NCBI GenBank assembly: GCA_017461985.1
Contig: JAFTSA010000005.1
Coordinates: 1-64,000, forward strand
DNA: 64,000 bases
Direction of reading: 5' to 3'
From: Clostridia bacterium
GTDB taxonomy: Bacteria > Bacillota > Clostridia > Christensenellales > CAG-917
Shown here: in pieces, positions 704 to 45,329 of the stretch
Layout: the number at the start of each line of letters is the position of its first letter
Numbering within the stretch: position 1 is the first letter of the stretch
Translations under genes and position numbers: made by a program
Notes under the pieces: generated by a model
Told to the model about the DNA's origin: nothing
Databases searched by the model: none
The model's input: the letters and a program-made list of their open reading frames with translations, nothing else

Positions 704-1609
704 ATGACAAAAAAAGAATTAAAACAAATCCAAAATGAAGTATCACAACAATCACTTGGAATATATGCAGGAATTCTATTTAACAACCAAATATTTATTG
801 AAGGAAACGATGATGAAATCGTCTATAATTTTGATTGCCCTGAATTAATAACTTTAAAAGAAAAATATAATTTAGAAGAAATTGCAGGTAAAGGAACAGA
901 CTTTAAAAAAGCAAAAAGAGTATTACATTATTTAGCGCCTAGACTAACTCATTCATCTTGGTATGATAATCATGTCCCTTGTAATGCTCTTGATTTGCTT
1001 GAATATAGTTTAAATAATCCTGAACAAGGAATTAATTGTTTGAATAAAGCTAAAATTTTAGAAGAGTGTTGTTTAGCTTTAGGTATATATGCTAGAAGAG
1101 TAAGTATAATGCCTTATTCGCCATTTGACTTTGATAATCATGTGGTTACTGAAATATATGATAGAAAGCTAAGTAAATGGATTATGTTAGATCCAACTAT
1201 TGATGGTTTATTTGTAGATGAAAAGAAAACACCTTTATCTTTATTAGAAATAAGAGAAAAGTTCGCTAATGATGAATTTGTTACTTTTGTACAATCAAAT
1301 GATAGTCTAAAAGATTTAAATAAATTAAAAGATAAATATATTGGCGAAAGTGCGTATATTTGCAAAAATCTATTTTACTTTTATATTGATAAAGATTCAA
1401 CATTTGGAACAACAGGTAATACTTTAGCTTTTGTACCATCTAATTATTCAGTTAAAGCAAAAGATATTGCAAACGCAAAATATAGAATAAATCATCTTCC
1501 AGAAGAATATAGGAAATGCGATTTAGAAAAGAGACTTGAAAAATTAACTAATTGTCCAGAAATTGAAAGAACAAATATTGATTCAATGGTGAAATCACCA
1601 ATCAAATAA
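704..1609 (+). CDS. Transglutaminase-like domain protein
   Basis: 301 aa, soluble, no signal peptide. The central part shows the transglutaminase-like (papain-fold) pattern: Cys in GINCLNKAKIL (about residue 107), then LGIYARRVS, His in DNHVVTEIY (about 147) and Asp in WIMLDPT (about 166), the expected Cys-His-Asp triad order. Members of this fold act as peptidases or amide-processing enzymes; the substrate here is unknown. A GGAGGT ribosome site lies 7 bp before the ATG. Codon use is very AT-rich, unlike genes after 1.8 kb, which suggests recent acquisition. The sequence after its stop resembles that after the upstream gene. Confidence 0.7.
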   Translation: MTKKELKQIQNEVSQQSLGIYAGILFNNQIFIEGNDDEIVYNFDCPELITLKEKYNLEEIAGKGTDFKKAKRVLHYLAPRLTHSSWYDNHVPCNALDLLEYSLNNPEQGINCLNKAKILEECCLALGIYARRVSIMPYSPFDFDNHVVTEIYDRKLSKWIMLDPTIDGLFVDEKKTPLSLLEIREKFANDEFVTFVQSNDSLKDLNKLKDKYIGESAYICKNLFYFYIDKDSTFGTTGNTLAFVPSNYSVKAKDIANAKYRINHLPEEYRKCDLEKRLEKLTNCPEIERTNIDSMVKSPIK

Positions 1610-1680
1610 ATTCCAATTTATCGGTCAGTTTAACTGTACGCAAATTGTATCAAATAGGTATTTACACACAAGAAAAAGGA

Positions 1681-1707
1681 CCAAGTCAACGGACTTGGTT
1701 TTTTTTT
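1681..1707 (+). terminator. Intrinsic terminator after transglutaminase-like gene
   Basis: CCAAGTC and GACTTGG form a 7-bp stem around AACG, followed by nine T. Confidence 0.85.
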
Positions 1708-1780
1708 ATGCGACCTGTGGACTTTGTGTGTTGAAAATACACGCACCTATGCACCACAAATAATATTGTTGATTTTTGTC

Positions 1781-1809
1781 TTGTAAAAATATGGGATTTA
1801 TATTATAAT
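1781..1809 (+). promoter_or_regulatory. Sigma-A-type promoter for phosphoribosyltransferase
   Basis: TTGTAA (1781-1786), 17-bp spacer, TATAAT (1804-1809); the gene starts 17 bp downstream. Confidence 0.7.
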
Positions 1810-1826
1810 AGTCGGGCGAGGTTATT

Positions 1827-2375
1827 ATGAAAACTTATCCCCTTAATATCAATGGCTACAAAACTGAACTCCCCATTCTTCCTCTTCCCAGCGGAGTAGA
1901 GATTTGTTTCTTCAATCTTCACGGCAATCCTGCACTCACAGAGCACTGCGGAAAGGAACTTGCCAAGCACCTCAGCGATTGTGACGTCGTCCTCACCGCA
2001 GAGTCAAAAGGACTGCAACTGAGTCACGTCATCGCAAGAGAACTTGGCCACGAATTCTACGCAGTTGCAAGAAAGAGCAAGAAACTTTATATGCAAGACG
2101 GCATTGAGGTCAGCTACGGCAGTTCAATCACCACAGGCAAAGATCAATGCTTGTATCTTTCAAAGCACGACGTCGATCTCCTTGTTGGCAAAAAGGTTGC
2201 AATCGTTGACGACGTGGTGTCCACAGGGGCATCTCTTCTTGGTCTTGAAGAACTTGTGAAGAAGGCAGGTGGCATCATCCATAAGAAGGCATTTGTCCTG
2301 GCAGAGGGCAGTGCAGCAAAACGTGACGACGTCATCTATCTTGCACCAATCCCCATCATCATCCCCGAAAAATAA
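1827..2375 (+). CDS. Purine phosphoribosyltransferase family protein
   Basis: 182 aa, type I phosphoribosyltransferase fold. The PRPP-binding signature VAIVDDVVSTGAS lies at about residues 127-139, and an upstream TAESKGLQLSH segment matches the flexible-loop/PPi region. Length and motifs resemble adenine or xanthine phosphoribosyltransferases, which convert a free purine base plus PRPP to the nucleotide; the exact base cannot be told from sequence. It has its own promoter and a GAGG ribosome site, and ends at a bidirectional terminator shared with the convergent ferredoxin gene. Confidence 0.75.
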   Translation: MKTYPLNINGYKTELPILPLPSGVEICFFNLHGNPALTEHCGKELAKHLSDCDVVLTAESKGLQLSHVIARELGHEFYAVARKSKKLYMQDGIEVSYGSSITTGKDQCLYLSKHDVDLLVGKKVAIVDDVVSTGASLLGLEELVKKAGGIIHKKAFVLAEGSAAKRDDVIYLAPIPIIIPEK

Positions 2376-2470
2376 CAGATAAACCCCTTGTTCTGTCATC
2401 ATATAGATTTTTTTGACTACGGTGATAGAGTGGTTTTTTACACTGAAAACTTAATTTTAGCAACAAAAAA

Positions 2471-2491
2471 AAGCACGCAGTTTGCGTGCTT
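2471..2491. terminator. Bidirectional terminator between convergent genes
   Basis: AAGCACGCA and TGCGTGCTT form a 9-bp stem with a three-base GTT loop, with an A tract on the left and T-rich sequence on the right, so it can serve both strands. Confidence 0.8.
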
Positions 2492-2509
2492 TTCTTATAT
2501 GTGTTTTGC

Positions 2510-2893
2510 TTATTTCACTTTCACCTTTTTCACGATGATGCTTTCTTTACGGCACTTTGTTGCACACACGCCACACTTGATGCACTTGTCATCATTGATG
2601 GTGAAGGGGCTCTTGACCACGCCGGTGATTGCGCCAACGGGGCAGGCTCTAGCACAAAGTGAACAACCGATGCAGGTGTCTTGATCAATATGTATTGATT
2701 CAACTCTTTCTTGGTTGTCATCGCAGTCGATTGCCACGGCTACACAAGCGGAGTAGCATTGCCCGCACTCTTTGCACTTTGTTTCATCGATTTCGTAGTA
2801 TTGCTCATCAAGGTGATGGATGATGCTGTCAAAGGGACACACAAAGGCACAATAGCCACAATCTGCACATTTTTCACGGTCTATTCTATACAT
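2510..2893 (-). CDS. Polyferredoxin with four [4Fe-4S] motifs
   Basis: 127 aa, almost wholly iron-sulfur binding. Four CxxCxxCxxxC motifs are seen in order: CADCGYCAFVC, CKECGQCYSAC, CIGCSLCARAC and CIKCGVCATKC. The second and fourth lack the usual Pro after the last Cys. It probably carries electrons in the cytoplasm. It is transcribed divergently from the aldehyde:ferredoxin oxidoreductase gene 280 bp away, so it is a natural candidate electron partner (inference). The start is set by a GGAGGT site 7 bp before the ATG. The C-terminal tail is Lys/Val rich (IVKKVKVK). Confidence 0.85.
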   Translation of the reverse strand: MYRIDREKCADCGYCAFVCPFDSIIHHLDEQYYEIDETKCKECGQCYSACVAVAIDCDDNQERVESIHIDQDTCIGCSLCARACPVGAITGVVKSPFTINDDKCIKCGVCATKCRKESIIVKKVKVK

Positions 2894-2988
2894 AGGACAC
2901 CTCCACTAAATATTTTAGCACAGCAAACCAAAAAGTCAATACGGATTTGAATTATAGACAATTTTGTCAAAAAAAGATTTCTATCATA

Positions 2989-3016
2989 TTGAAATATATT
3001 TTATATATGTTATAAT
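2989..3016 (+). promoter_or_regulatory. Promoter of the aldehyde oxidoreductase operon
   Basis: TTGAAA (2989-2994), 16-bp spacer, TATAAT (3011-3016). Transcription would start just before the structured leader. Confidence 0.75.
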
Positions 3017-3035
3017 AAAGACACAATAAAAGGCT

Positions 3036-3156
3036 ATTATCCGATTCCGCCGTCCTAAGGCAATGCTATGGACCTCGGAACGATAGGGTGCAGGGCGAAA
3101 GGACTGCGCCTCCCACTTGGAAAGGATATGATCGGCAATACAGATATTGCCGTTTT
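3036..3156 (+). ncRNA. Structured leader, candidate Moco/Tuco riboswitch
   Basis: The leader between promoter and aor is GC-rich and foldable. CCGAT (3041-3045) pairs with ATCGG (3131-3135) as an outer stem. Inside, GGTGCAG and CTGCGCC form a 7-bp hairpin capped by a C-GAAA-G tetraloop, followed by a GCCTCCCA stretch that I recall from molybdenum-cofactor RNAs. A second hairpin, CGGCAATA-CAGA-TATTGCCG (3133-3152) followed by TTTT, overlaps the 3' strand of the outer stem, so the two are mutually exclusive. Position ahead of a tungsten-enzyme gene fits a Moco/Tuco (molybdenum/tungsten cofactor) sensor; family assignment is by context and partial motif recall, not by model search. Confidence 0.6.
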
Positions 3157-3174
3157 GGCGTATAAGGAGAAAAT

Positions 3175-5076
3175 ATGAGCACAAAATTCGGAGCATACTG
3201 CGGCAAAGTCCTGAAAGTTGACCTGACAGATAGGACAGTCACTGAATATCCTTTCACCGATGAGGAGAGAGAACTTTTCCTTGGCGGAAAAATTATGGCG
3301 GCAAAAATCGTCTATGACAATATCACTGAAAAGATTGACCCCTTGTCACCCGAAAATATGCTTGTCATCACCACCGGCCCTATGAATGCAGTTGGTGCAC
3401 CCTGTTCATCGCGTTTCAACTGCTCAACCATATCCCCCCTCACCGGCTATTACACCTCATCAAACTGCGGTGGCGATTTTGGCTTGCATTTGAAGAGAGC
3501 AGGCCTTGACGGACTTATCGTCACGGGCAAAAGTGAAGAGAGGATTTATCTCTACGTCACCCCCGACGGAGTTGAGTTCAAAAATGCAGACGCACTTTGG
3601 GGAATGAAGACTGGTGAAACCCAACAAGCAATCCCTGAAAAGGGTGGCAAATTTGTCATTGGACCTGCAGGTGAAAACCTTGTCAAATATGCTTGTGTCA
3701 TCAGTGGTGAAAGAGCAGCAGGCCGAGGCGGTGTTGGTGCAGTTTTCGGCTCAAAGAATTTGAAAGGTATTGTTGCCTATGGCATCAAGTCACCTGAAGT
3801 GTATGACAAAGCAAAACTCCGCAAGGTCAACAAGGAGTGGACTGCACGTCTTAAGATGCACCCCACCACAGGCACACAACTGCCCGAACTTGGCACGGCA
3901 GGCCTTGTCACCACAATGCACTCAAAGAATCTTCTTGCCACCAACAACTATCGCAGTGGCAAATACGAGCACTTTGAAGACGTGTCTGGTGAAACCCTCC
4001 GTGAAGAACACCTTGTGAGAAACAACGGTTGCACAACTTGCCCCATTAGATGTGCAAGAGTGGTCAAAGTTGACGGCAAAGAGGTCAAAGGCCCCGAAGT
4101 TGAAACTCTCGGCTTGTTTGGTCCCAACATTCTTAACCGCGACATACAAAGCATTTTTGACTGGAACTATGAGATGGACGAGTTGGGCATGGACACCATC
4201 TCTTGCGGAAACACACTTTCCTTTGCAATGGAACTGAACGAGAAGGGTATGTGGGACAACGGCCTTGAATTTGGCAAGATTGACAACATCCGCAGTCTTC
4301 TTGACGACATAGCACACCGCAGAGGCATCGGCGACGACCTTGCAGAAGGCTCAAAACGCCTCAGTGAAAAGTTTGGCGGAAAGGAATTTGCAATGAACGC
4401 AAAGGGTATGGAACTTGCCGCCTATGAACCCCGTGGAGCAGTGGGACAAGGCCTCGGCTATGCAGTGGCAAACCGTGGCGGATGTCACCTCAACGGCGGA
4501 TATTTGGTTGTTATGGAAGGCCTTGGCCTTTCAATCAACCCCTACACAACCGGTGCAAAAGCAGGTCTTTGCGCAATGTTCCAAGATTTGATGGAAACTT
4601 GCAGTGCAGGAGGCAACTGCCTGTTCACAACCTACGCATTTTTCCCCACCTTCCTCATCAGCAAACCCAATGGTATGATTGCAAGAGTGGTCAACAAAGT
4701 GGCAACAAAGATTGGTTTTGCCATCAGTTTGATTCTCCGTGTGCCTACGGCACTGGCACTGCATCTGCCTTTCAATATGCTTCCTCACACCAAAGCAATC
4801 GCAGCCGCAACAGGCATGAAGATGAACTTTGGCAGATTCATCCGTATAGGTGAAAGAGGATACAACCTGGAGCGTCTCATTGACGTCCGTCTTGGTGTCA
4901 GCGCAAAGGATGACACTCTCCCTGAGCGTCTTACAACTGAACTGCAAATTGCCACCAATCCCAAGTCAAAAGTGCCTCTTGACAAGTTGAAGAAGAAGTA
5001 CTACAAAGTCCGCTACTGGGATGAAAACGGCATCCCCACCAAGAAACTTTTGAAACGTTTGAAGTTGGTGAAGTAG
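3175..5076 (+). CDS. aor: Aldehyde:ferredoxin oxidoreductase (tungsten-type)
   Basis: 633 aa, full length for the family. It oxidises aldehydes to acids and passes electrons to ferredoxin, using a tungsten (or molybdenum) bis-pyranopterin and one [4Fe-4S] cluster. The N-terminal domain begins YCGKVLKVDLTDR and continues with GGKIMAAKIVYDN and the pterin-binding SGERAAGRGGVGAVFGSKNLKG. The cluster ligands are CTTCPIRC (about residues 286-293) and a distal Cys in METCSAGGNC (about 474-483). The start has a strong AAGGAG site. The gene leads an operon with moaD-like and thiF-like genes 1 bp and 1 bp apart, which probably make or load the pterin cofactor. Natural substrate cannot be read from sequence. 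Confidence 0.92.
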   Translation: MSTKFGAYCGKVLKVDLTDRTVTEYPFTDEERELFLGGKIMAAKIVYDNITEKIDPLSPENMLVITTGPMNAVGAPCSSRFNCSTISPLTGYYTSSNCGGDFGLHLKRAGLDGLIVTGKSEERIYLYVTPDGVEFKNADALWGMKTGETQQAIPEKGGKFVIGPAGENLVKYACVISGERAAGRGGVGAVFGSKNLKGIVAYGIKSPEVYDKAKLRKVNKEWTARLKMHPTTGTQLPELGTAGLVTTMHSKNLLATNNYRSGKYEHFEDVSGETLREEHLVRNNGCTTCPIRCARVVKVDGKEVKGPEVETLGLFGPNILNRDIQSIFDWNYEMDELGMDTISCGNTLSFAMELNEKGMWDNGLEFGKIDNIRSLLDDIAHRRGIGDDLAEGSKRLSEKFGGKEFAMNAKGMELAAYEPRGAVGQGLGYAVANRGGCHLNGGYLVVMEGLGLSINPYTTGAKAGLCAMFQDLMETCSAGGNCLFTTYAFFPTFLISKPNGMIARVVNKVATKIGFAISLILRVPTALALHLPFNMLPHTKAIAAATGMKMNFGRFIRIGERGYNLERLIDVRLGVSAKDDTLPERLTTELQIATNPKSKVPLDKLKKKYYKVRYWDENGIPTKKLLKRLKLVK

Positions 5077-28455: not shown

Positions 28456-28475
28456 GCTTTATTTTCAGGGTTCGG

Positions 28476-28580
28476 GCAACAAAGTTGCGCACACGGGGTG
28501 TGCAATAAGCCATGGGGGAAACATACCTATTGCAATTACATACAACGCAAGCGTTGATTACATGCCGTTGTGAACAACGG
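28476..28580. repeat. Second mini-hairpin array
   Basis: Adjacent inverted repeats: GCAAC-AAA-GTTGC (28476-28488), GCACAC-GGG-GTGTGC (28489-28503), TGCAATA paired with TATTGCA (28501-28507 and 28529-28535), CAACGC-AA-GCGTTG (28543-28556) and CCGTTG-TGAA-CAACGG (28565-28580). It lies between the small RNA terminator and the tRNA-Glu terminator. The segment ATGGGGGAAACA inside it recurs at about 52147. Confidence 0.7.
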
Positions 28581-28614: not shown

Positions 28615-28689
28615 TGGTACCCCCATGGGGAATCGAACCCCAGATTCCGCCGTGAGAGGGCGACGTCTTAACCGCTTGACCATGAGGGC
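28615..28689 (-). tRNA. tRNA-Glu (anticodon CTC)
   Basis: 75 nt including the encoded CCA. Acceptor stem GCCCTCA with TGGGGGT (first pair G-T), anticodon stem CGCC/GGCG with loop CTCTCAC, T stem TGGGG/CCCCA with loop TTCGATT. Reads GAG codons. Partial copies of its 5' end lie just upstream. Confidence 0.93.
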
Positions 28690-30375: not shown

Positions 30376-30451
30376 GCTGGTGTGGCTCAGTCGGTAGAGC
30401 AGCTGATTCGTAATCAGCAGGCCGCGAGTTCAAATCTCGCCACCAGCTCCA
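30376..30451 (+). tRNA. tRNA-Thr (anticodon CGT)
   Basis: 76 nt with encoded CCA. Acceptor GCTGGTG/CACCAGC, anticodon stem CTGAT/ATCAG with loop TCGTA inside TTCGTAA, T arm CGAG-TTCAAAT-CTCG. Reads ACG codons. Its 3' third is repeated downstream three times. Confidence 0.95.
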
Positions 30452-31030
30452 AAGACAAGCGAAGGCTTGTCTTTTTCATTTGTGGCGGATTTTGGGCTAC
30501 GCCCTGTGCCCGCGGCACGAACTCGCTTTCCGCGAGTGGCGCTCGCCTACGTGAGTAAACTCACAGGTTTCACTATTACGCTCATTTCTTTCGCTACAAA
30601 TCTCGCCACCAGCTCCAAAGACAAGCGAAGGCTTGTCTTTTTCATTTGTGGCAGATTTTGGGCTACGCCCTGTGCCTATGGCACGAACTCGCTCTCCGCG
30701 AGTGACGCTCGCCTATGTGAGTAAACTCACAGGCTTCACTATTACGCTCATTTCTTACGCTACAAATCTCGCCACCAGCTCCAAAGACAAGCAGTTGCTT
30801 GTCTTTTTCATTTGTGGCGGATTTTGGGCTACGCCCTGTGCCAGTGGCACGAACTCGCTCTCCGCGAGTGGCGCTCGTCTATGTGAGTAAACTCACACGT
30901 CTTACTATTACGCTCATTTCTTTCGCTACAAATCTCGCCACCAGCTCCAAAGACAAGCGAAGGCTTGTCTTTTTCATTTTTGGCGGATTTTGGGCTACGC
31001 CCTGTGCCTACGGCACGAACTCGCTCTCCG
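30435..31030 (+). repeat. 166-bp tandem array containing tRNA-Thr 3' ends
   Basis: Units start at 30435, 30601, 30767 and 30933: exactly 166 bp apart, three full and one of 98 bp. Each begins with the tRNA 3' segment TCTCGCCACCAGCTCCA, then a terminator hairpin AAGACAAGC/GCTTGTCTT with T5, then GGGC-TAC-GCCC, GTGCC-nnn-GGCAC and GTGAGT-AA-ACTCAC hairpins. The nnn loop is CGC, TAT, AGT and TAC in the four copies while the stem is unchanged. The terminator loop is GAAG in three copies and AGTT in one. Short ORFs across it are products of the repeat, not genes. Confidence 0.92.
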
Positions 31031-45052: not shown

Positions 45053-45129
45053 GGGGGCATAGCTCAGTTGGTTAGAGCGCATGTTTCACATACATGAGGT
45101 CACAGGTTCGAGTCCTGTTGTCCCCACCA
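45053..45129 (+). tRNA. tRNA-Val (anticodon CAC)
   Basis: 77 nt with encoded CCA. Acceptor GGGGGCA/TGTCCCC, anticodon stem CATGT/ACATG with loop TTCACAT, T arm CAGG-TTCGAGT-CCTG. Reads GTG codons. Parts of its T arm are repeated downstream, one direct and one inverted. Confidence 0.94.
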
Positions 45130-45136
45130 AAAAACA

Positions 45137-45163
45137 AGAAGTCCAAACGGACTTCTTTTTTTT
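45137..45163 (+). terminator. Terminator of tRNA-Val
   Basis: AGAAGTCC-AAAC-GGACTTCT followed by T tract. A partial second copy of its 3' arm occurs at 45312-45329. Confidence 0.85.
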
Positions 45164-45182
45164 GTGGGTGACACAGGACTTT

Positions 45183-45329
45183 CATTGACGAAGTCAATGA
45201 GGGGTGCTTCACACCCCCGAACCTGTGCCTGTCACAGCTGACGCTCGGCTGAATGAACAGGTCTACCGCCTCATTACTACGGGGCAAAAGCCCCTACGAG
45301 TCCTGTTGTACAAACGGACTTCTTTTTTT
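45183..45329. repeat. Mini-hairpin cluster with duplicated tRNA-Val fragments
   Basis: Contains CATTGAC-GAA-GTCAATG (45183-45199), a GGGGTG/CACCCC hairpin, GGGGC-AAAA-GCCCC (about 45281-45294), an inverted copy of the tRNA T arm (CGAACCTGTG, 45218-45227) and a direct copy of tRNA bases CGAGTCCTGTTGT (45297-45309, 188 bp from the original) followed by the terminator's 3' half. No gene is visible in 45164-45395 apart from these elements. Confidence 0.75.

Follow-up and report, generated by a model that had tools for sequence, protein, structure and literature searches.

Small hairpin-rich units behind tRNA genes of Clostridia: a possible family of integrative cassettes

Introduction

The window analysed here is a 64,000-nt stretch of a Clostridia bacterium genome (GCA_017461985.1, contig JAFTSA010000005.1, positions 1 to 64,000). 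Behind one of its tRNA genes stands a row of short units, each of which begins with the 3' end of that same tRNA. What are these units, and how did they come to be stacked there? Repeats behind the tRNA-Tyr genes of Escherichia coli, named RtT or tpr, are a long-known oddity. A literature search with limited coverage of subscription papers found no account of such units in Clostridia.

Structure of the array

The tRNA-Thr(cgt) gene lies at 30376-30451 on the forward strand (ARAGORN and the Rfam tRNA model), as do all parts of the array behind it. The array, the only tandem one in the window, spans 30431-31030 with a period of 166 bp, 3.6 copies and 92% matches (TRF). Its four units start at 30431, 30597, 30763 and 30929, and each opens with CAAATCTCGCCACCAGCTCCA, the final 21 nt of the tRNA gene, which run from T-loop base C56 through CCA. 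In unit 1 this opening stretch (30431-30451) is the end of the gene itself. Units 1–3 (30431-30596, 30597-30762 and 30763-30928) are 166 bp long. Their 3' halves match R1, a covariance model of this part of the unit, at 30521-30602, 30687-30768 and 30853-30934. Unit 4 (30929-31030; TRF and folding) has only 102 bp; it ends within the B'B hairpin described below and has neither the core nor a final tRNA copy.

In unit 1, the tRNA end is followed by a terminator hairpin and T-run, GACAAGC-GAAG-GCTTGTC-TTTTT (30452-30476; sequence and folding). Next comes segment A', GTGGCGGATTT (30482-30492), antisense to the 3' strand of the tRNA T-stem and the loop; it is assigned from the sequence, the fold and a family-wide test. 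In the fold, A' pairs with the tRNA copy at the right end of the unit. Two hairpins follow, h1 (GGGC-TAC-GCCC, 30494-30504, from the fold) and h2 (GTGCC-nnn-GGCAC, 30506-30518, loop at 30511-30513). The B'-turn-B hairpin, ACTCGC-TTTCC-GCGAGT (30521-30537), holds the 5' strand of the T-stem first in antisense and then in sense. It leads into the conserved core motif STGRCGCTC (30536-30544, invariant columns of alignment A2), hairpin h3 (GTGAG-TAAA-CTCAC, 30551-30564, covarying over 73 distinct matches) and the right part of the core (TTCACTATTACG ... CTA, 30569-30596), which extends to the point where the next tRNA 3' copy begins. Small ORFs recur through the array; we judged them spurious, since 166 is not divisible by three.

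Stems and loops

The h2 loop reads CGC, TAT, AGT and TAC in the four units while the arms GTGCC and GGCAC are constant, and the terminator loop changed once, from the GAAG of the other units to AGTT in unit 3. Both observations agree with a preliminary description of this DNA. Over the whole unit, 18 columns vary, 13 among the 59 unpaired and 5 among the 87 in stems, with stems assigned from the fold of unit 1 alone (Fisher p=0.0045). Change events are fewer than variable columns, because two loops changed as blocks (7 of the 13 loop changes). The stems are not fully constant, given their five variable columns; none of the 21 tRNA-copy columns varies. Across the 73 distinct matches, h3 is paired in 97% and has 77 double-change cells, against 18 in shuffles. 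The hairpins are under selection, as had been proposed for the stems and as both the column counts and the helix covariation support. A process that rewrites loops, offered earlier as the other option, is not borne out, though whole hairpins do differ between neighbouring units with the same core. The case is tRNA-Ser(cga) of a related genome, G008 (locus L121), where two neighbours have a common core, unrelated first hairpins and different terminators. Here whole hairpins are exchangeable modules.

An assembly artefact is unlikely, since the units behind tRNA-Thr differ pairwise by 3-14 bases, a congener has a decayed remnant at its tRNA-Thr locus (L010), and other assemblies contain exact or near-exact arrays of the same kind.

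Distribution

In the window's genome, the 3' end of the tRNA recurs downstream of 11 of the 45 tRNA genes and upstream of none, where a copy means at least 16 of 21 nt matching at no more than 450 nt from the tRNA. Such copies follow Ala-cgc, Tyr, Leu-tag, Trp, Ala-ggc, Arg-cct, Leu-cag and Leu-gag, and Ser-gga has three. Within the window, a decayed single unit at 45130-45309 (forward strand; R1 match 45221-45302, E 1.5e-4) follows tRNA-Val(cac) at 45053-45129. It retains A', B', the core and a partial 3' copy, CGAGTCCTGTTGT (45297-45309). A probable remnant, read by eye, follows tRNA-Glu(ctc) (28615-28689) at 28466-28518 on the reverse strand, with an A'-like CCCCCATGG, two hairpins and a B'-like CGAACCC and without a core. 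Unit types II and III, recognized by eye, occur at similar tRNA sites. The start of contig C6 and the ends of C8, C9 and C10 of the same assembly (G000) lie just after a tRNA gene or no more than about 1 kb from one; repeats at tRNA genes may break this assembly.

Among 396 genomes of the order, 28 have R1 matches, and most of these 28 belong to two genera of the window's family. When 391 genomes were drawn from the class and searched, a test that could miss weak or divergent relatives, only the window's own genome matched at E<=1e-4. The fetched loci hold 81 R1 matches, most beside a tRNA gene; several of the 81 lie at contig ends with the tRNA beyond view, and a few of the weakest may be chance. 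Units with the shared core stand beside tRNAs of many types and are found in several of the order's families, and the boundary of the tRNA copy is nearly always C56 to CCA, across many tRNA types. Named records that carry the core are Clostridia MAGs from gut. The earlier suggestion of a non-autonomous element at a tRNA is well supported by these similar units at many tRNA genes and by one empty site.

At one locus (L085) a unit has the 3' end of tRNA-Leu, and the tRNA gene is absent from the contig; just upstream of the unit lies a transposase-like ORF, IS66-like by eye (856-2415, reverse strand).

A known structured RNA was rejected as the identity of the units: when the window, 15 loci and 8 array loci were scanned against Rfam, tRNAs and one Moco riboswitch away from the array were all that passed the gathering score. 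The riboswitch, a molybdenum/tungsten cofactor aptamer, is at 3027-3145 of the window on the forward strand. As to a virus origin, the core pattern had no match in viral contigs.

Matching of units to their tRNA

Across the family, the left part of a unit consists of the tRNA 3' end with CCA, usually an intrinsic terminator, A' and up to two hairpins. The right part consists of B', a short turn, B, the core STGRCGCT, an optional h3, TCRCTATTA, an optional h4 and the next C56 copy. A' is the antisense of the T-stem 3' strand and loop, B' is the antisense of the T-stem 5' strand and loop, and B is the T-stem 5' strand in sense. In two loci (L155 and L156) the two 5' hairpins are missing and A'B' is a single unbroken antisense T-arm, followed by a T-arm with the core inside its loop.

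These segments fit the T-arm of the local tRNA. The longest exact match of A' is 7.3 nt to the local tRNA against 4.9 nt to other tRNAs (p 7e-10), and that of B' is 8.2 nt against 5.2 nt (p 2e-10), over 52 units; these are not all independent, as tandem copies are among them.

Further body types at the T-loop site were seen by eye at six loci (L057, L078, L069, L193, L062 and L076). Their sequence marks are AAAAGCGTCA...TTTTTAGCGRTGACCGAAG and also GTGATAGCGAAGCGGAG ahead of C56.

Insertion or duplication

Three arrays in related genomes are exact or near-exact: 3x174 bp at tRNA-Lys (G008, L122), 3x182 bp at tRNA-Trp (G011, L127) and 2x148 bp at tRNA-Ile (G014, L138). Such units speak for recent local duplication. 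They raise the question of whether local events suffice, with the tRNA 3' region and terminator duplicated in tandem and inverted by slippage or template switching, then drifting under hairpin selection, and no mobile element involved. The unit body, in part the T-arm copied first in inverted and then in direct orientation, would also suit such events. We nevertheless consider local events alone very unlikely, given the common core at many tRNA types in several families and the different unit types found within single arrays. Mixed arrays occur at Ser-gga and Ala-ggc in the window's genome and at Arg-cct of another (G019), and they suggest repeated insertion beside the tRNA. For 35 of 38 units the nearest core is in a different genome and at a different tRNA type, by identity over aligned columns only, a measure that favours short cores. 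Spread by tandem duplication, as first proposed, agrees with the near-identical arrays; as the sole route it does not hold, since the mixed-type arrays and the kinship of cores indicate insertion too.

The tRNA-Lys array of G008 can be compared with its site in relatives. In G011 and G023 (L191 and L192), tRNA-Lys is directly followed by the sequence that in G008 follows the last array copy. Because these relatives show the empty site, the G008 array is an insertion with an exact 21-bp duplication. The empty site is that of tRNA-Lys in related genomes; at the window's Thr locus the comparison is with the congener's remnant only. Orthologous empty sites also count against purely local events, though a local event could begin at such a site as well.

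G008 also provides a positive control. At its tRNA-Glu lies a 2.7-kb element (L210) with a tyrosine integrase, a repressor and a replication protein, and the duplication at this element runs from C56 to CCA, the same as in the hairpin units. A regenerated tRNA plus a displaced fragment is the hallmark of integrase islands, as in the Islander set (PMC4383910), and phage Ms6 has a T-loop attB at tRNA-Ala (PMC1762012).

We hold with moderate confidence that small non-autonomous integrative cassettes have stacked up in the T-loop of tRNA-Thr to form the array. Each cassette would be non-coding DNA, made of hairpins almost throughout, that inserts at T55|C56. Insertion would leave an intact tRNA 3' end with CCA and terminator at the left and the displaced 21-nt tRNA end at the right, and would probably be performed by a tyrosine integrase acting in trans. 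The structure under selection may be the folded single strand or a cruciform of the cassette DNA. Arrays would grow by repeated insertion at the regenerated tRNA and by unequal recombination between units.

The tRNA copies themselves raise a difficulty. A cassette that brought its own tRNA end to a new tRNA type would give the tRNA the wrong acceptor strand; therefore either a cassette remains with its tRNA type for long, or the target supplies the copy. The latter could be the work of a target-duplicating enzyme, a transposase-like or Cas1-like integrase acting just after CCA on a unit with no tRNA end, whose staggered cuts would duplicate the 21 bp from C56 to A76. The copy indeed fits the local tRNA, acceptor strand included, at 21 of 21 positions at many loci despite similar cores elsewhere, and the Thr unit is related to a Pro unit of G001 while their acceptor strands differ. 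We nonetheless think such an enzyme improbable, since the boundary is identical to that of the tyrosine-integrase element at tRNA-Glu of G008. The tRNA-Lys of G008 also bears on the point. Its changes in the acceptor form two G.U pairs and are alike in all four copies, which fits a replaced end, among other possible readings, and so counts against target duplication as well. The acceptor 3' strand of this tRNA-Lys(ctt) (L122) reads AGGGTGT, and that of sister genomes reads AGGATGC.

Search for a mobilizing enzyme

The units have no genes, are shorter than 200 bp and carry no integrase. The window's genome has one tyrosine recombinase, which is probably the housekeeping Xer. We sought an autonomous parent by neighbourhood in related genomes, and the core was absent from all 20 integrase regions examined. 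Both results weigh against integrative cassettes, as do the size of the units, far below that of known integrase elements, and the fact that neither excision nor a circle was observed. For the recent identical arrays, homologous recombination suffices.

One unit (L088) is separated from tRNA-Thr(ggt) by about 2.9 kb of cargo (~1898-4855) with a repressor, an IrrE-like protein and a DUF4417 protein. No recombinase is present in this cargo, which looks like a separate passenger element. It is bounded by inverted repeats of about 24 bp (TCTTTSATTCACCAAATGACTG).

Comparison with known repeats and mobile DNA

Behind tyrTV of E. coli K-12 stand 178-bp repeats (rttR/RtT, tpr; Rfam RF00391). Their likeness to the Clostridial array is in plan: tandem units of 166-178 bp directly after a tRNA, strings of hairpins and varying unit number (1-14 RtT matches per E. 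coli genome). Each RtT unit ends with 18-19 nt of the tRNA 3' end and has antisense A'/B' and sense B segments fitted to the local Tyr or Pro tRNA. The tyrTV unit has A' (GGGGAAGGAT), B (AAGGTTCGA), hairpins and a 19-nt tRNA-Tyr end in the same order as the Clostridial parts. In Salmonella, the RtT units at tRNA-Pro have A', B' and B fitted to that tRNA and a terminator in each unit. The last unit of one such array (L219, 1780-2300) runs into a tyrosine-integrase fragment (Phage_int_M, E 3e-17), which we count in favour of the integrase model. A search for E. coli RtT in phage records gave a single match, a Salmonella genome contig.

The two sets also differ. The Tyr units of E. coli lack a terminator, and their folding is on a par with that of shuffled sequences (z -0.6). 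The Clostridial core (TGRCGCT, h3, CTATTACG and h4) is another sequence; the E. coli GAGCGYCAG, reverse-complemented, reads CTGRCGCTC, a likeness that may be accidental. Clostridial units occur at a dozen or more tRNA types. The RF00391 model had no match in the window's genome up to E=10 and none at the array loci. On sequence, then, we describe the Clostridial units as similar to RtT in plan and do not claim membership of RF00391.

The units could instead be RtT-like RNA genes, read through from the tRNA promoter, cut out during tRNA processing and employed in regulation, with recombination changing their number. Besides the equal plan of the E. coli Tyr and Salmonella tRNA-Pro repeats, helix covariation is what such genes would show, and so is strong folding, as seen in the Thr unit (z -4.3) and the Lys unit (z -5.3). 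We regard this as possible but rather doubtful. In most Clostridial units an intrinsic terminator comes straight after each CCA, so that read-through would be weak and release of an RNA from the tRNA transcript is doubtful. Neighbouring units exchange hairpin content (L121), and Rfam has no match. Single stem mismatches on the tRNA strand of 72 R1-matched units are more often A.C (22) than G.T (10). This lack of a G.T excess is weakly contrary to selection on a sense RNA, which we rejected on the wobble count; the A.C excess hints weakly that it is DNA, or the opposite strand, that folds.

As integrative cassettes, the units can be set beside better known mobile DNA. With integrase elements at tRNA genes they share the T-loop boundary, the regenerated 3' end, the displaced direct repeat and tandem accretion (PMC4383910, PMC1762012). 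Unlike those elements, they are geneless and below 200 bp, and they have antisense T-arm segments and hairpins throughout. MITEs and integron cassettes are likewise short, non-coding or nearly so, folded, and dependent on an enzyme in trans. The Clostridial units differ from both in their fixed insertion point in the T-loop and their target-matched stems. As for the terminal inverted repeats that a MITE shares with an autonomous transposon, the A'/A pair of the units is inverted but is tRNA sequence, and an autonomous parent was not seen in the regions examined. The nested A'/A and B'/B pairing resembles integron attC in topology only.

Discussion

The units belong in kind with the RtT-type tRNA repeats. 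What is new is the taxon, the number of tRNA types, the terminators and the evidence for insertion. A broader and unlikely proposal is that RtT and the Clostridial units together make up a single, widespread class of minimal mobile DNA whose targets are found by base-pairing. The split antisense T-arm would pair with the unit itself or with the target and could form a four-way junction at the T-loop; recombination would involve single-stranded or cruciform DNA, and the T-arm segments would choose the tRNA.

The Clostridial family, with its empty site and integrase control, offers a testable account of how RtT-type repeats originate. Very small mobile units that pile up behind tRNA genes, and may break assemblies there, would thereby be defined. 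The family also poses the problem of how an element keeps its stems matched to its tRNA target.
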